Below are positions 2,044 to 12,063 of a stretch of DNA of 64,000 nucleotides, piece after piece. The DNA is from an uncultured Saprospiraceae bacterium (lineage in GTDB: Bacteria; Bacteroidota; Bacteroidia; Chitinophagales; Saprospiraceae), in the NCBI GenBank assembly GCA_938002665.1, contig CALLAE010000009.1, positions 62,001 to 126,000 on the forward strand, read 5' to 3'. Position numbers and translations under genes: made by a program. Below the pieces are notes generated by a model. The model was not told the DNA's origin. It did no database searches and saw nothing but the letters and a program-made list of their open reading frames with translations. The stretch's first letter is position 1; every line of letters starts with the position of its first letter.

Positions 2044-3036
2044 CTAACAGAAGTGAAAGATATTTTCATGGGTTATTCCTTTGGTAATCTCTGCTATTTC
2101 TGAACCATAGCCCTCTTGGCTGATCGCTAAGATGAGCTGAAACATTGTAAGACTACTCATTACATCTATACTTTCTAGTTGCACCTCATAGATCTCTTTG
2201 CCTATTTTCTTTGGATTATTACAGAGCCATCTGAAGGGTATATTATGGTTGCTCAATTCTTTGGCCAGCGCTTTCCCTTTCTTTCCCGCCCCCCAAAGTA
2301 CTAAGCTTGTATCTGGATTATAATCCTGTCCAAGAAAATGATGGATCTTAAGTACTGAAAATTTATTGTCAGAGTAATTAGCGTCCGTACGAGAGGTCCT
2401 AGTCGGGTAGTCTCTCCAGTAATGTGTAAGGCTCTGCACGTTCTTAAGTTTCAGGCCTGCTCTCTTAAATCGGAAACAGAGATCATAATCTTCAGGATAA
2501 ATGTCTGAGCGGAAAGCACCACATCTCTCAAAGTCAGACCTATGTAACATCCAGTTGGGTGAGGCTATAGAGCACTCTTTGTAGATATCTGAGAAATTGG
2601 CCTCCCGCAAGCTTAGTTCATTGAGCCATGCTTCATAGCGCTGGTAACCATCACCCAGGTTATCCTCTGAGATATACTTTACCAGCCCTGTTGTGAGATG
2701 GCCTTTGCCTGCGTCCATGAGCACTTGCACAAAGAGCTCTAGCTTTTGCGGTGACATAAGATCATCACTATCCATTCTAGTGATGTAAGAGCCTTTACTA
2801 GTGGTATAGGCTTGGCTAAGAGCAGCTATTATGCCTTGACCATTGGAATCTATGGCAGTGATTCTAGAGTCTTGAGAAGTGTAAGCTCTAAGAATTTCTA
2901 GAGAGTTATCAGTACTGTTATCATTTATAGCTATGAGCTCCCAGTCTGAGTGGGTTTGTTTAAGAATAGAGTCTATGCACTGCCTGAGATACTGAGCAGT
3001 ATTTTTGACTGGCATCAAGATGCTAACTGTAGACAT
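2044..3036 (-). CDS. Glycosyltransferase family 2 with C-terminal Rossmann-like domain
   Basis: VSILMPVKNTAQYLRQCIDSILKQTHSDWELIAINDNSTDNS ... RMDSDD; C-terminus LVLWGAGKKGKALAKEL. Confidence 0.85.
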   Translation of the reverse strand: MSTVSILMPVKNTAQYLRQCIDSILKQTHSDWELIAINDNSTDNSLEILRAYTSQDSRITAIDSNGQGIIAALSQAYTTSKGSYITRMDSDDLMSPQKLELFVQVLMDAGKGHLTTGLVKYISEDNLGDGYQRYEAWLNELSLREANFSDIYKECSIASPNWMLHRSDFERCGAFRSDIYPEDYDLCFRFKRAGLKLKNVQSLTHYWRDYPTRTSRTDANYSDNKFSVLKIHHFLGQDYNPDTSLVLWGAGKKGKALAKELSNHNIPFRWLCNNPKKIGKEIYEVQLESIDVMSSLTMFQLILAISQEGYGSEIAEITKGITHENIFHFC

Positions 3037-3427
3037 AGTATCGGAATAGAGGGAAGCTAACGCAGATCCCTATAAGGAAAGCAATAAGGACTTTGGAGAT
3101 CATGTACTGGAACTGGAAATACTCCGTGAAGAAATAGATACCTGCCATATTCAGCAAAAGTATAAGTAAGCTCACCAGACCATACTTAACGGCCTGATAG
3201 CCCCAGGCCTTGTCTGTTCTTTTGAAGGCCCAGTTTCGTTGTACCACAAATCCTACCACAGCACCTATCCCGCTAGCAATTCCTGAAGAGATTACATAGT
3301 ATATGCCTGCCCATTCAGTAAGAATATAAAGACTACAAAAATCGAAGGCCGTAGCTAGGAACGAACCGAGCTGTGATTTGACTAAGGATTGAAGAAAGGG
3401 AACCTTATGGGATGATTGCTCAGCCAC
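3023..3427 (-). CDS. GtrA family membrane protein
   Basis: 134 aa, four predicted TM helices, FLATAFDFCSLYILTEW... AVVGFVVQRNWAFK typical of GtrA; overlaps the GT2 start by 14 nt. Confidence 0.8.
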   Translation of the reverse strand: MAEQSSHKVPFLQSLVKSQLGSFLATAFDFCSLYILTEWAGIYYVISSGIASGIGAVVGFVVQRNWAFKRTDKAWGYQAVKYGLVSLLILLLNMAGIYFFTEYFQFQYMISKVLIAFLIGICVSFPLFRYYVYS

Positions 3428-3899
3428 TGATTAGAGGTTCTAGATATAAGATATAGAGATGCAGCACAACGCAGGCATAGACACCAGCCAGTACATCATC
3501 CATCATCACTCCCAGGCCACCCTTAAGGTTTTTGTCTAGATATCTGACACCTAGAGGCTTGAGGATATCAAAGAATCTAAAAAGCACAAAGCCTATAAGC
3601 ATATACTTAAACGAAATGGGTACTAAGATCATCGTTATGAGATATCCTACAAACTCATCCATAACGACTCTAGAGGGATCATCTCCCCAGACTGGGATTA
3701 CTTGATCCGTGCTCCATATGCCTATAACAGCAAAAAGAAATGACATTCCTATAAGTGGAACCAATGCTACACTATCTGGATAGTAATGGCTAAGACAGGC
3801 ATAGAAAATGACAGCGCCTATTGTCCCAAATGTTCCAGGGGCAATAGGCGCATATCCTAAGCCCATAACAGTTGTTATGGCTTTATGAATATTGATCAT
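3420..3899 (-). CDS. pgpA: PgpA-like phosphatase (phosphatidylglycerophosphatase A family; candidate phosphatidylinositol-phosphate phosphatase)
   Basis: PIAPGTFGTIGAV, VVMDEFVGYLITM and MMDDVLAGVYA motifs of PgpA; PI role inferred from neighbours. Confidence 0.85.
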   Translation of the reverse strand: MINIHKAITTVMGLGYAPIAPGTFGTIGAVIFYACLSHYYPDSVALVPLIGMSFLFAVIGIWSTDQVIPVWGDDPSRVVMDEFVGYLITMILVPISFKYMLIGFVLFRFFDILKPLGVRYLDKNLKGGLGVMMDDVLAGVYACVVLHLYILYLEPLISG

Positions 3900-3902
3900 A
3901 GA

Positions 3903-5297
3903 TTACTCTTCGTAATCTTGACCAAGATGATTTATAAGCTCGTGTCCTCCTATATATCTTAAGGTGTTTTCTAGCTTGGCTAGTTGCTTAAAGATATCAT
4001 GGATAGGGTAGCGTCCTTCTGGTGCTTGTGGGGATTTTAGATAGAAAGATAACCACTCTTGTATGCCAGACATACCTGCTCTTTTAGCAAGATCTAAAAA
4101 GATGGCCAAGTCTAAAACAATAGGTGCAGCCAATATAGAATCTCTACATAGGAAGTCCACCTTGATTTGCATCTTGTAATCTAACCATCCTTTGATGTCT
4201 ATATTATCCCATCCTTCTTTATTATCACCTCGTGGTGGATAGTAATTGATTCTGACCTTGTGGTAGAAGTCTTTGTATAATTCAGGATAGAGTTTTGGTT
4301 CTAGTATTTGTTCTAAGACGCCTAGCTTAGAAACCTCCTTAGTCTTGAAGTTATCTGGATCATCTAGTACCTCTCCATCTCTATTCCCTAATATATTAGT
4401 AGAGAACCATCCTTCTACTCCTAATGCTCTCGCCTTAAATCCTGGAGCAAGTATAGTCTTCATGAGGGTCTGTCCTGTCTTGAAATCTTTTCCTATAATA
4501 GGCGTACCCGTTTTCTTTGCTAGCTCTACCATTGCTGGCACATCGCAAGAGAGGTTAGGCGCTCCATTAGCATATGGGATACCCATCTTGATTGCTGCAT
4601 AAGCATAGATCATACTGGGTGCTATCAGCTTAGAGTTTTTCTCTAAGCCTTTTTCGAAGGCAGCAAGCGTCTTGTGTACAGGAGATTCCTCTATATAGAT
4701 TTCAGTAGATCCACACCAGACCATTACTAATCTATCACACTTGTTTGCTTTTTTAAATCTTCTTATATCAGCCATGACTGCTTTGGCAAGATCCATTTTG
4801 CTCTTCGCTTTTTTGACATGGGTGCCATTTAGTTTTTTGACATACTTTTTGTCAAAAACAGCTTTCATTGGCTTTATCTTAGAAAGAGGTGCTTTTAGTT
4901 TGTCTAGTAATTCTTTGTCAAGTACATCAGCATGGACAGCTGCTTCATACATGTTGTCCTTGAAAATATCCCAACCACCAAACTTTATTTTAGACAAGTC
5001 ATGCAAAGGCACAACCTCACTCATGAACGGCAATTTTTTCTTAGAGGTTCTCTTTCCGATTCTCATTCTACCCATTTGAGTAAGTGATCCTACTGGATTA
5101 GAAAGTCCTTTATTTACCGCCATCACACCTGCTATAAAGGTGGTTGCTACTGCTCCCATTCCTGGAGTCAGTATGCCTAGATTACCAGTAGCTGGAGAGG
5201 CTAGTCCTTTTTGGCTAGTTGCTCTTTTAGCTGGTTTTTTTACAACTTTTTTAGTTGATTTCTTTTTCGATTTCACTGCTGCTTTTTTAGCTGCCAT
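3903..5297 (-). CDS. myo-inositol-1-phosphate synthase with basic N-terminal extension
   Basis: LGILTPGMGAVATTFIAGV Rossmann start; VWCGSTEIYIEES; NGAPNLSCDVPAMVELAKKTGTPIIGKDFKTGQT; NILGNRDGEVLDDPDNFKTKEVSK. Confidence 0.93.
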   Translation of the reverse strand: MAAKKAAVKSKKKSTKKVVKKPAKRATSQKGLASPATGNLGILTPGMGAVATTFIAGVMAVNKGLSNPVGSLTQMGRMRIGKRTSKKKLPFMSEVVPLHDLSKIKFGGWDIFKDNMYEAAVHADVLDKELLDKLKAPLSKIKPMKAVFDKKYVKKLNGTHVKKAKSKMDLAKAVMADIRRFKKANKCDRLVMVWCGSTEIYIEESPVHKTLAAFEKGLEKNSKLIAPSMIYAYAAIKMGIPYANGAPNLSCDVPAMVELAKKTGTPIIGKDFKTGQTLMKTILAPGFKARALGVEGWFSTNILGNRDGEVLDDPDNFKTKEVSKLGVLEQILEPKLYPELYKDFYHKVRINYYPPRGDNKEGWDNIDIKGWLDYKMQIKVDFLCRDSILAAPIVLDLAIFLDLAKRAGMSGIQEWLSFYLKSPQAPEGRYPIHDIFKQLAKLENTLRYIGGHELINHLGQDYEE

Positions 5298-5307
5298 GTT
5301 TCTTTGT

Positions 5308-6300
5308 TTATAGTAAGTTATTTGCTTGGCACCAAGCGATTGTTTTCACCAGACCTTTCTTGAGATCGTATGCGGGTGCGAAGTTAAAATCTTTTTTTAA
5401 GTCCTGAGTATCAATGGCAAACGACCTTGCAAAATATTCTTTGACCTTATTTCTATTAAGTGTGGGGACGACCCCTCTTATTCTACCTATTTTTTCGCTC
5501 AAAAAGGCGACTATCTTCATTATTGTGAATGGAATAGTAAGATTGATAGCCTTTTTACCCAAAATTTCTTGGAGGTAGCCATTCAGCTGGTCTATAGGAT
5601 AGATAGCTCCGTCACCTACAAAATAGGACTTATTCACCACAGGATTGTTCAGTGTAGAAATGATGAGTCCTGCTAGGTCCTCTACATAGATAAAAGTGGC
5701 ATCCATATCTCCTGCTCCTATTTTGGGAGCGATGCCCATTTTCACTGTTTTGTATATAGAGACCATTTCTGTATCTCGAGGACCATATACTGCAGTAGGT
5801 CTTAAGATAATATGTGGGATCTGCGGGAAGCTTAGAATGAATTGCTCCGCTTGCAGCTTAGATTCTCCATACCAGGTAGTGGGGTGCGGTGTGCTCTCGT
5901 GGTCTAGAATTTGTTTTACCTGCTGGTCTGCAGGGCCGTAAGAAGCGAGGCTACTGACATACACCAGTTTCTTCGGGATGACGTTTTCTTCTATTAGTAG
6001 CTTACAGAATTTTCTAGTGTAGCCAGCATTTATTTTGAAATAGGCTTCCTTGTTTTTTGCTGAAGTAACACCAGCATTGAGAATGATATAATCAAAGAAT
6101 TCGGTTCTTAATTGTTCTCTTAGTTTGTCCTCTTTGTCAAAGCTGTAGTAGAAGAACTGGATTCTCGGGTCTGTAAGGTATTGTAGATTACTAGTTTTTC
6201 TGACACCGGCATACACATGGAATCCGGCTTTGATAGCTGCTTCTACTATCCAACTTCCTACAAAACCATTAGCACCGGTTATCAGCAGTTTTTTACTCAC
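5308..6300 (-). CDS. NAD(P)-dependent epimerase/dehydratase (extended SDR), candidate CerR-type 3-ketoceramide reductase
   Basis: LLITGANGFVGSWIVEAA, YxxxK motif (WYGESKLQAE), RPTAVYGPRD; adjacent to SPT and GNAT genes. Confidence 0.75.
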   Translation of the reverse strand: MSKKLLITGANGFVGSWIVEAAIKAGFHVYAGVRKTSNLQYLTDPRIQFFYYSFDKEDKLREQLRTEFFDYIILNAGVTSAKNKEAYFKINAGYTRKFCKLLIEENVIPKKLVYVSSLASYGPADQQVKQILDHESTPHPTTWYGESKLQAEQFILSFPQIPHIILRPTAVYGPRDTEMVSIYKTVKMGIAPKIGAGDMDATFIYVEDLAGLIISTLNNPVVNKSYFVGDGAIYPIDQLNGYLQEILGKKAINLTIPFTIMKIVAFLSEKIGRIRGVVPTLNRNKVKEYFARSFAIDTQDLKKDFNFAPAYDLKKGLVKTIAWCQANNLL

Positions 6301-6304
6301 GGTG

Positions 6305-7429
6305 TTAGCTTTTGGTTGTGTATAATCTGTAAGTCTTATACCTCTTACCGTTGAGCTTTTCGGCTGCTTTTATCATTTCGGTATTAGATTCTAAGATCCA
6401 AGATGCTTCACCACCATCCAGTCCTCTTTCTCTTGCTGCCAGAATATTTTTTGCAAAGAAAATCGCTTCTATGCCTTTTTTGCGGTATTCTTCTAGGACA
6501 CCTGTAGTTATAATTCTGACTGATTTGTACTTTCTTCTATTGAGTAATAGTTTGAATATATTGAAAGGGAACAGTCTGCCTTTTTTAAAACCTATGGTGA
6601 TTTCATTGACATTAGGTAGAGAGACAGAGAAGCCTATCGGCTCACCATTTTGTTCTGCTATATACGCAAATGCAGGATCAGCTATAAGCTTGAGATCAGC
6701 AACAAGGTGGTCTACTTCTTCTTTACTCATAGGTACAAAACCCCAATTATTTTCCCATGCCGTATTATAGATTTTGAAGATTGCAGGTACCTCAGATTTG
6801 ATATTTTTGATATCCATATTTCGGATAGTGATACCTTGTCTTTTCAGTCTTTCCTCTATCATAGCAGATAGCTTGATGGACTTATCAGAGACAGAATCTG
6901 TCGGAATCATATAGGCATACAAATCCATTTCTTTGACCATACCCAGCTCTGTTTGGATTTTATCATAGTACGGCTTATTGTAGGTCATCATGATTTTGGG
7001 AGGAGAATCATAACCTTCTACTAGGGTTCCAGCTGTTTCGTTAGTAGAGAAATTTACTGGCCCCATCAGTTTATCATACTTTTCTGGTGCGAGATGTTCT
7101 CTTACTTTATTAATCAGTGCCTCAGCAACTTCTCTAGAATCTACATAGTCGTAAAAGCCAAAAAAGCCAATATTGGAATTGTGGTGATCGTTATAGACTG
7201 GATTTTTTATGGCAGCTATTCTCCCTACTTGTCGGCCATCTTTGAACGCCATAAAACAAGTTACTGTCCTTAGTTTATGGAATGGATGTTTCTTAGCATT
7301 GAAGAGATCTTTTTGCGCTAAAAATAATTCAGGCACATAATTAGGATCACCCTCATAGAGCTCGTGCTGAAAATCTATAAATTGGTATAGCTCTTTTTTA
7401 TTTGTTGTCTCTTTTACTTCGAGACTCAT
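6305..7429 (-). CDS. GNAT-superfamily protein, candidate bacterial ceramide synthase (bCerS-like)
   Basis: 374 aa GNAT-like C-terminal half (AYIAEQNGEPIGFSVSLPNVNE...ITTGVLEEYRKKGIEAIFF); ATGA overlap with the SPT gene. Confidence 0.65.
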   Translation of the reverse strand: MSLEVKETTNKKELYQFIDFQHELYEGDPNYVPELFLAQKDLFNAKKHPFHKLRTVTCFMAFKDGRQVGRIAAIKNPVYNDHHNSNIGFFGFYDYVDSREVAEALINKVREHLAPEKYDKLMGPVNFSTNETAGTLVEGYDSPPKIMMTYNKPYYDKIQTELGMVKEMDLYAYMIPTDSVSDKSIKLSAMIEERLKRQGITIRNMDIKNIKSEVPAIFKIYNTAWENNWGFVPMSKEEVDHLVADLKLIADPAFAYIAEQNGEPIGFSVSLPNVNEITIGFKKGRLFPFNIFKLLLNRRKYKSVRIITTGVLEEYRKKGIEAIFFAKNILAARERGLDGGEASWILESNTEMIKAAEKLNGKRYKTYRLYTTKS

Positions 7430-8646
7430 GCAGGCGTTTTGATCTCATTTCCATCAAATACTCCGATCTTTTTTGAGATAGTATAGATCTTATCTATGGA
7501 TTCTTCTATCTGAGATTTTGTATGGGTAGCCATCAGAGAGTAACGAATAAGAGAAGACGAACTAGGTACTGCTGGAGAGACAACTGGATTGACAAAAACA
7601 CCATTTTCTAGCAGCAACTTTGTCAAATTAAAAGTCTTGAAGTCATCTCTTATCATAATCGGAATGATAGGTGTCTCAGAATGTCCTGTATCGAAACCTA
7701 AGTCATTGAGCAATTTCATTGCATAATGTGTATTCTCCCAGAGCTTATCTATTCTTTCGGGCTCTTCTTGTATAAGATCTAGAGCAGCTATAACAGAAGC
7801 TGCATTAGCTGGAGCAATGCTGGCACTAAAGATTAGAGACCTGGCATTATGCTTTAGATAATTGATTGTTTCATTATTAGCAGCTACAAAACCACCTATA
7901 GATGCGAGTGACTTACTGAACGTTCCCATTATCATATCTACATCATCAGTAACTCCAAAATGGTCAGCGGTTCCTCTACCACCTTTACCCATGACACCTA
8001 GACTATGCGCATCATCTAAGAAAATGCAGCCATTGTATTTTTTTGCTAGTGCAACGATTTCAGGCAACTTGCAGAGATCTCCTTCCATACTGAATACTCC
8101 ATCCACTGCGATAAGCTTTATTTTATCTGGGTCTGCCTTTGCTAGAAGCTTTTCTAGACCCTCCATATCATTGTGCTTGTACTTCCATACTTTGTTAGCA
8201 AAGGAAAGTCTAGCACCATCTATGATACAAGCATGATCTAGATCATCTATAATGACATAATCATGTCTGCCTGGAATAGAAGATATAACACCGAGATTGA
8301 CTTGGAACCCTGTACTGAAAACCAGTGCACCATCTTTACCGACGAACTTTGCTAGCTTATCTTCTAGTTCTAGATGTATGTCTAGAGTACCATTCAAAAA
8401 TCTAGAACCAGCACAACCTGATCCGTACTTATCTATAGCCTTTTTTGAAGCTTCTTTGAGCTTAGGGTGATTAGTCAGTCCTAAGTAACTATTAGAGCCA
8501 AACATCAGGACATCCTTTCCTTGGATTTTTACTACTGTATCCTGCTCAGATTCTATCGTTCTGAAATATGGGTATAGACCCATTGCCTGGACTTTCTGGG
8601 GCTGAGTATAGGCAGCCATCTTTTTTTGAAGAGGTGTCATAATCAA
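7426..8646 (-). CDS. spt: Serine palmitoyltransferase-like alpha-oxoamine synthase
   Basis: GSNSYLGLTNHPKLKEA, YGSGCAGSRFLNGTLDIHLELE, DDAHSLGVMGKGGRGTADHF, PLP-lysine motif GTFSKSLASIGGF. Confidence 0.85.
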   Translation of the reverse strand: MIMTPLQKKMAAYTQPQKVQAMGLYPYFRTIESEQDTVVKIQGKDVLMFGSNSYLGLTNHPKLKEASKKAIDKYGSGCAGSRFLNGTLDIHLELEDKLAKFVGKDGALVFSTGFQVNLGVISSIPGRHDYVIIDDLDHACIIDGARLSFANKVWKYKHNDMEGLEKLLAKADPDKIKLIAVDGVFSMEGDLCKLPEIVALAKKYNGCIFLDDAHSLGVMGKGGRGTADHFGVTDDVDMIMGTFSKSLASIGGFVAANNETINYLKHNARSLIFSASIAPANAASVIAALDLIQEEPERIDKLWENTHYAMKLLNDLGFDTGHSETPIIPIMIRDDFKTFNLTKLLLENGVFVNPVVSPAVPSSSSLIRYSLMATHTKSQIEESIDKIYTISKKIGVFDGNEIKTPA

Positions 8647-8656
8647 TTAGTTAGAT

Positions 8657-9514
8657 TCAGCTGATGTTTTTAATAGTATTATGGTACCAAGAAGGCACAA
8701 AGTTACCATTTACCGTCTTTTCAGTTAGAAAAATACCAATAATCCCACAACCAATCCCCATCAATACGTCGATTAAATAGTGGTGATTACTATAAATAGC
8801 CCCAAACCATATAGCTAACAAGCTTATTACAAATAAGGTTGTAAGAACTTTATTACCATATTTTAGGCTATAATAGCTTAAAACCAGTGGGAAAGCGGCA
8901 TGCATGGAAGGGAGTGCACCGAAGGTATTAGTCCCTTGACTGTACATTCCATGATATATAGGGATGCCTATCATTTCGTCAAATCTGGCTAAGCCTGCAG
9001 GCTCTCCCATGGCTGTGATGAGAATTTCACTCCCATACTTGAGGTAGTACCATGGTGGTGCAGCAGGTAGCAGTATATATATGATAAAACCAAATATGTT
9101 AGTAATCAAAAAGCATAGCCAAAAGTCGAAAACAAGTTTCCTTCTTTTCTTGAAAAATATGAGCAGCCCGAAAAGAATAGGAAAGGGTGCCCAAGTGATA
9201 TAAAAACAACCAGAGATTATATCGAAAATGGGATGGATATGGGCATTGAAGTATTCGCAAAGAGTGACTCTCACACCATCTAGTTGTACGCCAAACCAAC
9301 TCACCTCCCAGTCGTATAATTTTTTATTTAAGATAGGGAAAGGATTATAGTTATGTAAGATCTTTAAGGAACTGTAGCAAATGAGATACAAGAATAGGGG
9401 AGTGAAACTAAGGCCTAGTTTTCTAGTAGTGGCAGTGGCAAAAAATAAACCCACTGCAAGAAAATAAAAAGCGACAGCAAAAGCATCTAGCCCTACCACT
9501 AAGCCAAACCACAA
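8657..9514 (-). CDS. PAP2-superfamily Aur1-like membrane enzyme, candidate inositol phosphorylceramide synthase; reading frame extends upstream to about 9598
   Basis: Multi-TM; FGALPSMHAAFPL and SNHHYLIDVLMG correspond to the PAP2/Aur1 C2 and C3 motifs. Track start is TTG inside a probable TM helix. Confidence 0.75.
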   Translation of the reverse strand: MWFGLVVGLDAFAVAFYFLAVGLFFATATTRKLGLSFTPLFLYLICYSSLKILHNYNPFPILNKKLYDWEVSWFGVQLDGVRVTLCEYFNAHIHPIFDIISGCFYITWAPFPILFGLLIFFKKRRKLVFDFWLCFLITNIFGFIIYILLPAAPPWYYLKYGSEILITAMGEPAGLARFDEMIGIPIYHGMYSQGTNTFGALPSMHAAFPLVLSYYSLKYGNKVLTTLFVISLLAIWFGAIYSNHHYLIDVLMGIGCGIIGIFLTEKTVNGNFVPSWYHNTIKNIS

Positions 9515-9601
9515 CCAATAGACGACTGAGAGTATAATACCCGATGTTAGCCAGGTTTTAGAAAACCTATCGAATTCAATATTAACAGGAGCAGTAATGA
9601 C

Positions 9602-10153
9602 TTAGAATTCTATTTTTTGATAAACGGGGAAATTGTCAGTGACACTAGTCCCAAAAAACTCGATAAACTTAATCTGAGGAAAGACGCCAAATTCTTCTGC
9701 ATAGACAAAGATGTTAGAGACAACCGACATCTTGTTTTGTAACATCGAAAACACTTTGTATTTGTTGTTATCATCTTTAGCAAGAAAGAAATCCTGCTGG
9801 TCATAAGACACAAAATTGAACTTGTATGTTTCTCGGTTTATCTTATTGAATTTACATCCGAAAGCTAGCTTTTTCTGAATACTGTTCAGTGCTTTCTTTT
9901 TAATCTTATGTTCGTAATTCATCCAGAAAACATCTATAGGAGAGTCTTCATTCATAATGCCGTCAGCTCCTACATTAAGTGTATATACGATTGTGTTAGT
10001 ATTGAGATTTCTTTGGATGTAGAATAATAGATTTTTGTTCTTAGGTGTAGGGTAGTGTTCCGGCAGACCCACCTGACCAGTGTAATTGAATTTGAACTTT
10101 AGTCTATTGAAATTATCTAACATAATAATGTGGACGGTATGCAATATTACCAC
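9602..10153 (-). CDS. DUF4833-like protein of the inositol-lipid cluster
   Basis: LLFYIQRNLNTNTIVYTLNVGADGIMNEDSPIDVFWMNYEHKIKKKALNSIQKKLAFG resembles DUF4833 as I recall it; true start may be the internal M of MLDNFNRLKF. Confidence 0.5.
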   Translation of the reverse strand: MVILHTVHIIMLDNFNRLKFKFNYTGQVGLPEHYPTPKNKNLLFYIQRNLNTNTIVYTLNVGADGIMNEDSPIDVFWMNYEHKIKKKALNSIQKKLAFGCKFNKINRETYKFNFVSYDQQDFFLAKDDNNKYKVFSMLQNKMSVVSNIFVYAEEFGVFPQIKFIEFFGTSVTDNFPVYQKIEF

Positions 10154-10168
10154 TTATACTAACCACGA

Positions 10169-10870
10169 CTAGTATTTCTCTAGCAATTTTGTCCTAGAAT
10201 AGTATAGACGGCGCAGAGCAGTAATATTTGCTGATATTGCTAAAATAAAGATAGGCCAGCTAAATATAGATATTGTTTCGAATATCGGTTGGCTGAGCCA
10301 ATCTACGCTGTAAGTATAGTCACCTCCTATCTGCTTAGAAATGAGAAAGGTCAGAAGACTGGAAACAGCCACCAGAACTATGCGCTCTGGTCTCTGCATA
10401 ATTCCTACACTAGCATTGACCCCTAGTCCTTCAGCCCTCGCTCTAGTGTAACTTACCATTATGGAGCCTATCATAGCTATAAAGCAAAATATCGAAGTAA
10501 GAAGGTAATTCTGAGTCACTGTATAATAACAAAAGCCAAAAAACATGACTAATTCACTGTATCTATCTAACACTGAGTCATAGAGCGCACCATAGGGATG
10601 ATCTGTACCACTCACTCTTGCTAATCTGCCATCTACCATATCCATGGCACCAGCGAGAAGAATTATAAGGCCTGCATAGCCTAGATACCTATGATCGTCT
10701 CTGTCACCTACTTCGGCACCATAGATGAGGACACCAGTCGAAACTATATTAAGAACAAAGCCAAAAAAAGTGACCATGTTAGGTGTAATCCCTACTTTCA
10801 TAAGAATCTTGATCAGTGGGCTGAGTATGGCGTAAACTAGCTGCTGGAGACTTTTCTTGATAGGATTCAA
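10169..10870 (-). CDS. CDP-alcohol phosphatidyltransferase, candidate phosphatidylinositol-phosphate synthase
   Basis: Signature DG-x2-AR-x8-G-x3-D-x3-D present as DGRLARVSGTDHPYGALYDSVLD; multiple TM helices. Confidence 0.88.
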   Translation of the reverse strand: MNPIKKSLQQLVYAILSPLIKILMKVGITPNMVTFFGFVLNIVSTGVLIYGAEVGDRDDHRYLGYAGLIILLAGAMDMVDGRLARVSGTDHPYGALYDSVLDRYSELVMFFGFCYYTVTQNYLLTSIFCFIAMIGSIMVSYTRARAEGLGVNASVGIMQRPERIVLVAVSSLLTFLISKQIGGDYTYSVDWLSQPIFETISIFSWPIFILAISANITALRRLYYSRTKLLEKY

Positions 10871-10901
10871 ATAAATATCGCTTTTGGTGATTGTATTGCC
10901 T

Positions 10902-10933
10902 CAAAGCTAGTAAAACTTGGGTTAAGCTATCAA
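10902..10933 (-). promoter_or_regulatory. Bacteroidota-type promoter of the lipid operon
   Basis: Minus strand TTG-N21-TAGCTTTG, matching the TTTG(-33)/TAnnTTTG(-7) consensus; about 32 nt upstream of the ATG at 10870. Confidence 0.55.
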
Positions 10934-11013
10934 CATACGTTCCTAGGATATTCTGAGAGATTAGCACTGAGTATGTCAAAATTTCGTTTTATTTGTTAAA
11001 AATGTGACTACTT

Positions 11014-12063
11014 ATGAATGCCAAAATAGCTGGTGTGGGTTACTATGTTCCTGAGAATGTTTTCACTAATGAAGACCTTACTCAGTATATGGATACTTCT
11101 GATGAATGGATACAAGAAAGAACTGGGATTAAGGAAAGAAGATTTGCGACCAAGCATAAAGAAACTCCTACAACTATGGGTGCGGCTGCTGCCCGCATAG
11201 CAATAGATCGGGCAGGCATCAGCCCAGAAGATGTAGATTTTATAATTTTTGCCACTCTCAGTCCAGACTACTACTTCCCTGGCTGTGGCGTTTTGCTGCA
11301 GAGGGAATTAGGTATTACCAAAACAGAGATAGGCGCACTAGATGTCAGAAATCAGTGCTCAGGATTTATTTACGGTCTTTCTGTTGCTGATCAGTTTATC
11401 AGGTCAGGAATGTACAAGAATATTCTTTTGGTAGGATCTGAAATGCATTCGATGGGCTTAGATTTTAGTACTAAGGGTCGTGGCGTATCTGTCATCTTTG
11501 GAGATGGTGCTGGAGCAGTGGTGCTGCAGCCTACAGAAGGAGAAGGTATCCTTACCACTAAGCTTCATTCTGATGGGAGTTACGCAGAAGAGTTAGCCCT
11601 GATAAATTTTGGCTCTCACGGAGGATATCATGATGAGGTAGATTACGGCTATCCTGATCCTAAGATTCCAGGGGGTCTTTTTGCTACTGAGAAGATGGTT
11701 ACCGAGGGCATGATGTATCCTTATATGAATGGACAAAAGGTATTTAAAAAAGCAGTAGTCAAATTTGTAGAAGTAATAAATGAAGCGCTGGGCTCGACTG
11801 GTCTTGATAAGAAAGATATAGACATGATGATCCCTCACCAGGCCAATCTAAGAATCAGCCAGTTTGTGCAGCAGAGTATGGGGCTCCCTGATGAGAAGAT
11901 ATTTAATAATATCCAGAAGTATGGCAATACGACTGCTGCTTCTATTCCTATTGCGTTATGTGAAGCATGGGAAGCGGGAAAGATTAAGTCTGGAGACTTG
12001 GTATGTCTAGCGGCATTTGGGAGTGGCTTTACTTGGGGCAGTGCGCTGGTCAGGTGGAACTGA
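11014..12063 (+). CDS. fabH: 3-oxoacyl-ACP synthase III (FabH family)
   Basis: AKIAGVGYYVPENVFTNEDL...TSDEWIQERTGIKERRFA; active-site Cys in RNQCSGFIYGL; IPHQANLRI; YGNTTAASIPIAL. Confidence 0.92.
   Translation: MNAKIAGVGYYVPENVFTNEDLTQYMDTSDEWIQERTGIKERRFATKHKETPTTMGAAAARIAIDRAGISPEDVDFIIFATLSPDYYFPGCGVLLQRELGITKTEIGALDVRNQCSGFIYGLSVADQFIRSGMYKNILLVGSEMHSMGLDFSTKGRGVSVIFGDGAGAVVLQPTEGEGILTTKLHSDGSYAEELALINFGSHGGYHDEVDYGYPDPKIPGGLFATEKMVTEGMMYPYMNGQKVFKKAVVKFVEVINEALGSTGLDKKDIDMMIPHQANLRISQFVQQSMGLPDEKIFNNIQKYGNTTAASIPIALCEAWEAGKIKSGDLVCLAAFGSGFTWGSALVRWN

Follow-up and report, generated by a model that had tools for sequence, protein, structure and literature searches.

The inositol lipid cluster of Bacteroides thetaiotaomicron, BT_1522-BT_1526, has the order AUR1-PIPS-GtrA-PgpA-MIPS, and genetics in this organism back the roles of AUR1, phosphatidylinositol-phosphate synthase (PIPS), the PgpA-like phosphatase and myo-inositol-1-phosphate synthase (MIPS), the AUR1 homologue being a genetically proven phosphoinositol dihydroceramide (PI-DHC) synthase (PMC9246714). 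These genes lie far from the gene for serine palmitoyltransferase (SPT), and a 2024 paper states that sphingolipid-producing Bacteroidota do not encode SPT, bacterial ceramide synthase (bCerS) and ceramide reductase (CerR) near one another (PMC11334938). Saprospiraceae and Chitinophagaceae were not represented among the genera of an earlier survey (PMC9246714). Here, a ten-gene minus-strand unit was analysed at positions 2044-10870 of a 64,000-nucleotide stretch (the window) of contig CALLAE010000009.1, from a free-living Bacteroidota bacterium whose Saprospiraceae metagenome-assembled genome (MAG; 3.76-Mb draft, 87.5% complete) was searched family by family. The unit is real, and it very likely constitutes a conserved operon for the synthesis of PI-DHC from the primary metabolites serine and glucose-6-phosphate, with all the genes brought together in a single conserved row. 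The enzymes belong to known kinds, but their joined arrangement appears to be undescribed, and this arrangement and the DUF4833 protein are the new parts. Ten open reading frames (ORFs) fill the region in a program-made ORF list, as follows in transcription order:

10169-10870, minus strand: PIPS, a CDP-alcohol phosphatidyltransferase and predicted phosphatidylinositol-phosphate synthase (BT_1523-like) with a TTG start (NF052561, PF01066, structures)
9602-10153, minus strand: DUF4833 protein (PF16117), with its likely true start at the ATG at 10123
8657-9601, minus strand: AUR1-like PAP2 protein, predicted phosphoinositol dihydroceramide (inositol phosphoceramide, IPC) synthase (NF052609, 9ivc, motifs, start comparison)
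7426-8646, minus strand: SPT, first ATG at 8640 (NF047600, 3a2b, alanine residue test)
6305-7429, minus strand: tandem-GNAT acyltransferase, predicted bCerS (YghO match, fold)
5308-6300, minus strand: extended short-chain dehydrogenase/reductase (SDR), predicted ketosphinganine/ceramide reductase, CerR-like (CC_1164-type match, motifs)
3903-5297, minus strand: MIPS, BT_1526-like (PF07994, 344 bits; 7nwr)
3420-3899, minus strand: PgpA-like phosphatase, predicted phosphatidylinositol-phosphate phosphatase, BT_1525-like (PF04608, 141 bits)
3023-3427, minus strand: GtrA-family membrane protein of the same family as BT_1524 (PF04138, 61 bits)
2044-3036, minus strand: GT2 glycosyltransferase (PF00535, 112 bits; DSDD motif)

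The intergenic spacing of the unit, in transcription order, is 15, 87, 10, -4, 4, 10, 3, -8 and -14 nt. To determine the conservation of the gene order, genome contigs were scanned once with an alignment of the GNAT protein, which returned 80 loci; SPT is present in 70 of these, SPT with MIPS in 42, and SPT with PIPS and AUR1 in 41. The order PIPS-DUF4833-AUR1-SPT-GNAT-SDR-MIPS-PgpA-GtrA is exact in 21 named loci, and nine further loci of Chitinophagaceae type hold the full set of nine, permuted to SPT-GNAT-SDR-MIPS-PgpA-GtrA-PIPS-DUF4833-AUR1. The nearest named loci are from Saprospiraceae MAGs throughout. A shared order of nine genes is far beyond chance, and from the spacing and this conservation we infer co-transcription of the ten genes. 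The tight, co-directional row described by the sequence-only reading, a note made earlier from the DNA letters, is thus borne out by the ORFs, their spacing and the conserved nine-gene order.

Among 396 evenly sampled Bacteroidota genomes, SPT over its cut-off was found in 18, of which 15 also possess MIPS. In 8 of the 15, SPT and MIPS are no more than 5 kb apart, namely in the window genome, in two genomes of family f21, where the order is the same, and in five from f23, a further family of the class; in the other 7 they are unlinked. Neither a GNAT gene nor an inositol-lipid cluster flanks SPT in Bacteroides finegoldii or Parabacteroides distasonis, which agrees with the published statement on Bacteroidota cited above. 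The union of inositol and ceramide modules in one row stands, although it is conserved in several families and is not specific to the window. Among the other loci, L111 and L118 have PIPS beside SPT-GNAT-SDR but match neither AUR1 nor DUF4833 at the locus; AUR1 may be elsewhere or replaced. In Chitinophagaceae, a fatty-acid hydroxylase (PF04116) lies between DUF4833 and AUR1 (L136:16788-17480 and L148:18554-19225), where ceramide hydroxylation is possible; both loci, which were inspected closely, have a DUF5686/carboxypeptidase-regulatory-like protein after GtrA, and L136 has no MIPS match in the row. L148 belongs to a cultured strain, Foetidibacter luteolus YG09. A plasmid-borne ceramide set is present on pAUEa of Aureispira anguillae, where SPT is accompanied by a bCerS-type protein and an oxidoreductase (L157:4735-8564).

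Within the inositol module, the AUR1-like protein matches the fungal AUR1 structure 9ivc (E 4e-17), its closest solved homologues are IPC synthases, and its PAP2 motifs SMHA and NHHYLID are intact. By sequence comparison it is a clear homologue, though not an NCBI equivalog, of the PI-DHC synthase BT_1522/AUR1. PIPS also matches PF01066, is closest to solved PIPS/AF2299 structures (E 1e-17), and has an intact active-site motif of the form D2DG2AR-G3D3D (DMVDGRLARVSGTDHPYGALYDSVLD). MIPS is present as a single copy in the host genome and possesses both Pfam domains, and its nearest solved relative is the inositol-3-phosphate synthase 7nwr (E 7e-165); an N-terminal Lys/Ala-rich tail of about 30 residues (5205-5297; MAAKKAAVKSKKKSTKKVVKKPAKRATSQKG) is shorter in loci L076-L079 and mostly absent in other loci. 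The PgpA-like, GtrA and GT2 proteins are assigned at family level only.

The 87-nt interval between the DUF4833 and AUR1-like genes is not a genuine gap, because the AUR1 frame is open through it and encodes a conserved motif there. The annotated start of the AUR1-like gene is a TTG at 9514, but the open frame, which is the DUF4833 frame with one TAA separating the two genes, is open from the TAA onward and runs upstream to about 9596. AUR1 relatives have an ATG start 5-10 codons ahead of a conserved D/N-R-F motif, and in the window this motif (ITAPVNIEFDRFS) is encoded right after the DUF4833 stop, upstream of the annotated TTG; the AUR1-like protein is therefore about 30 residues longer than annotated. 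At the start position of the relatives, the window (9514-9601) lacks ATG, GTG and TTG and offers only ATT. An ATT start is known for infC, and the AUR1-like gene probably starts at an ATT codon near 9596, although stop-codon readthrough at the TAA or a wrong base in the MAG would each explain the missing start. The mis-set start that had been proposed here is right in substance, but it requires one of these three unusual circumstances.

The ceramide module begins with SPT, which scores 679 bits, over the cut-off of 640 of the Bacteroidota SPT model NF047600 (SerpalmtaseCFB), and whose nearest solved relative is the Sphingobacterium SPT 3a2b (E 1e-153). Cysteate acyltransferase (SulA) has its specific residue, Lys281, 30 positions after the lysine that binds pyridoxal phosphate (PLP) (PMC9304779), whereas alanine occupies this position (Lys245+30) in the window SPT and in all 71 relatives that could be read. 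The host genome encodes two further full-length alpha-oxoamine synthase (AOS) enzymes, KBL (681 bits, cut-off 493) and a BioF-like protein, which are very distant from SPT in a phylogenetic tree; in model searches they match other models or have much lower scores. SPT does not, then, group with KBL/BioF; such a grouping was the outcome that the sequence-only reading had named as refuting its proposal. The deep part of the SPT tree is poorly resolved and its deep branching order is open to doubt, so it is the model score and the residue test that carry the SPT assignment.

The GNAT protein exhibits 33% identity with Escherichia coli YghO over 376 aa, its whole length (E 8e-68), and a YghO query matches only this protein in the host genome. 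YghO is listed as an orthologue of the Caulobacter ceramide N-acyltransferase CC_1154 (PMC9386255), and the AlphaFold model of the GNAT protein has a tandem-GNAT fold (match to 5kf1, E 1e-13). By this comparison via YghO, the protein is a member of the bCerS (CC_1154/YghO) family, with a predicted N-acylation activity; a GNAT protein outside this family would have told against the sequence-only reading. In some Saprospiraceae (L053, L056 and L059), the bCerS slot is filled by another type of GNAT with about 27% identity. The SDR carries the motifs TGANGFVG and YGESK and is the best, though modest, match of the CC_1164-type reductase in the host genome. As an extended SDR and the best genome match it is a candidate for the CerR proposed earlier, but the low identity given below makes this assignment weaker than those of the other enzymes.

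With good confidence, the unit can be read as a single operon for PI-DHC, the predicted product, and each catalytic step in the host would follow from the family membership and key motifs of the proteins. SPT would convert serine and an acyl thioester to 3-ketosphinganine, and the tandem-GNAT bCerS would N-acylate and the SDR reduce the keto group, in either order. PIPS would couple inositol-phosphate to CDP-diacylglycerol, the PgpA-like phosphatase would convert the phosphatidylinositol-phosphate (PIP-DAG) to phosphatidylinositol (PI-DAG), and the AUR1-like PAP2 protein would transfer phosphoinositol from PI-DAG to dihydroceramide with release of diacylglycerol (DAG). GtrA and DUF4833 would be accessory. 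The pathway proposed earlier is retained in its joining of an inositol module (MIPS, PIPS, PgpA-like, AUR1-like) to a ceramide module (SPT, bCerS, CerR-like), but not in its GT2/GtrA extension. Literature searches on Saprospiraceae or Chitinophagaceae lipids returned no report of inositol phosphoceramide.

Several observations weigh against this prediction. The AUR1-like protein, with 256 bits, does not reach the cut-off of 480 of NF052609, and PIPS, with 297 bits against the cut-off of 350 of NF052561 (PIPSynBT1523), is below equivalog level. The SDR exhibits a modest 24% identity with the E. coli CC_1164-type reductase over 321 aa (E 7e-30). By eye, no signal peptide is evident at its N-terminus (MSKKLLITGANG), whereas the CerR of Caulobacter resides in the periplasm (PMC11087976). 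Any pathway role of GtrA, DUF4833 or GT2 is putative.

The low AUR1-like score also suits an alternative in which PI-DAG and dihydroceramide are separate end products and the AUR1-like protein uses phosphatidylethanolamine or phosphatidylglycerol as the donor for another phosphosphingolipid, as do the lack of an AUR1 match in L111 and L118, which carry PIPS, SPT, GNAT and SDR, and the position of an AUR1-family gene beside SPT-GNAT without inositol genes in L102, L104, L112 and L117. However, AUR1 and PIPS occur together in nearly all complete loci, the closest solved homologues are IPC synthases, and the B. thetaiotaomicron homologue is proven by genetics to be a PI-DHC synthase (PMC9246714), which makes a different donor unlikely.

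Similarly improbable is a glycosylated inositol phosphoceramide, like those of plants or fungi, in which GT2, with GtrA, would add a sugar to the headgroup. GT2 overlaps GtrA by 14 nt, its position is kept in L076-L079, and its GT-A DSDD motif is intact, but it is present in the operon only in the clade formed by these loci and the window. Orthologues with 41-56% identity are found in relatives without an AUR1 hit (G100, G102-G105, G107 and G108), and outside the operon in the same-genus genome G129, so GT2 is not specific to this pathway. The tailoring role given to it earlier is thus poorly supported, a dedicated tailoring enzyme is largely rejected, and GT2 is probably a late arrival unrelated to the pathway. 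GtrA, which had been taken as a new extension, is a usual passenger already found in the B. thetaiotaomicron cluster, where deletion of BT_1524 left inositol lipids unchanged by thin-layer chromatography (PMC9246714). A GtrB-type polyprenyl-sugar system of GtrA and GT2 is unlikely, as GT2, by eye, has no obvious C-terminal membrane helices. In 19 loci (for example, L088:14352-15248), a gene of the diacylglycerol-kinase family follows GtrA at the place that GT2 occupies in the window and L076-L079, and the orthologue in the window genome lies on another contig (L185). Such a kinase is a natural partner because AUR1 would release DAG and the kinase return it to phosphatidate, and it may thus recycle the DAG in the many relatives where it is the next gene.

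Two further alternatives concern SPT. Sulfonolipids are present in Bacteroidota, and within the AOS enzymes SulA is closely related to SPT (PMC9304779), but a sulfonolipid row is very improbable and was rejected on the Lys281/Ala test, as SPT also passes its own model cut-off and AUR1, MIPS and PIPS have no place in such a row. A headgroup-less deoxyceramide made on a 1-deoxy base by an alanine- or glycine-using SPT is just as remote, since such a base has no hydroxyl for AUR1 loading and would render the joined AUR1 gene useless, even though 1-deoxyceramides are reported from Bacteroidota (PMC11334938) and the substrate choice of SPT is not readable from its sequence here.

The least explained part of the PI-DHC operon is DUF4833, which matches PF16117 with 119 bits (gathering cut-off 23.1) and separates PIPS from AUR1 in each of the 21 loci that share the order. 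Its predicted model is all-beta (predicted local distance difference test score 88), a fold search of the PDB and of viral model libraries gave no significant match, and a literature search found no paper on the family. Among the scanned loci, the protein has no signal peptide in Saprospiraceae, the window included, and has one in most Chitinophagaceae. In genomes of family f25 that gave no SPT or MIPS hits (L169-L171 and L178), DUF4833 adjoins GtrA and a CDP-alcohol phosphatidyltransferase-like gene, and in other places it occurs on its own; the family thus accompanies inositol sphingolipid genes without being restricted to them. It had been assigned to the B. thetaiotaomicron inositol-lipid locus, but that cluster holds GtrA and not DUF4833 (PMC9246714). 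The evidence leaves evenly balanced the proposal that DUF4833 is an undescribed, fold-novel inositol-sphingolipid accessory encoded between PIPS and AUR1, which stays in the cytosol in Saprospiraceae and is exported in Chitinophagaceae, and that the block is a self-contained cassette. If so, the nine-gene block would be a complete inositol-sphingolipid cassette across Saprospiraceae, Chitinophagaceae and one further family of the class.

The unit is flanked by the following features:

11014-12063, plus strand: fabH, the divergent neighbour upstream of PIPS; a divergent fabH is also present in many relatives
10871-11013, no strand: divergent intergenic region of 143 nt shared with fabH, the presumed operon promoter region
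Ending at 2041, convergent: gene for a 37-kD nucleoid-associated protein (PF04245), 2 nt from the GT2 stop

The divergent fabH and the convergent gene give the unit clean limits. A sigma-70-like match (10/12) lies on the minus strand at 10979-10950, between fabH and PIPS; the promoter scan, however, returned 24 sites against 26.4 expected from shuffles and thus no excess. Terminator-like sites exceed the shuffles (10 against 5.5) and are mostly on the opposite strand.

With the genes joined in this way, the whole route could be transferred to a laboratory host as a single cassette, to settle the order of acylation and reduction, the roles of DUF4833 and GtrA, and any recycling by a DAG kinase of the DAG that AUR1 would release. 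It also predicts inositol sphingolipids in the environmental families Saprospiraceae and Chitinophagaceae.

The operon resembles B. thetaiotaomicron BT_1522-BT_1526 in bringing together the AUR1-like, PIPS, GtrA, PgpA-like and MIPS families (PMC9246714), and the DUF5686 protein of the Chitinophagaceae-type loci resembles the description of BT_1527 (PMC9246714). The B. thetaiotaomicron cluster, however, lacks SPT, bCerS, CerR and DUF4833, and its organism encodes SPT (BT_0870) and ketosphinganine reductase (BT_0972) elsewhere. With spt, cerS/bcerS (CC_1154) and cerR (CC_1164) of Caulobacter crescentus and Rhodobacteria, the operon shares an SPT, a CC_1154/YghO-type N-acyltransferase and an extended SDR as the predicted reductase (PMC9386255, PMC11324152), but its SPT is of the Bacteroidota (CFB) type, its ceramide genes are joined to inositol genes, and the row has no specialised acyl carrier protein (ACP) or acyl-ACP synthetase. 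SulA from the sulfonolipid system of Alistipes shares the PLP-dependent AOS fold with the window SPT, from which it differs at Lys281 (PMC9304779). Fungal AUR1 IPC synthase shares with the AUR1-like protein the SMHA and NHHYLID motifs and a PAP2 fold for phosphoinositol transfer to ceramide, whereas the window protein is bacterial and operon-encoded, and its predicted phosphatidylinositol source is PIP-DAG made from inositol-phosphate rather than free inositol.

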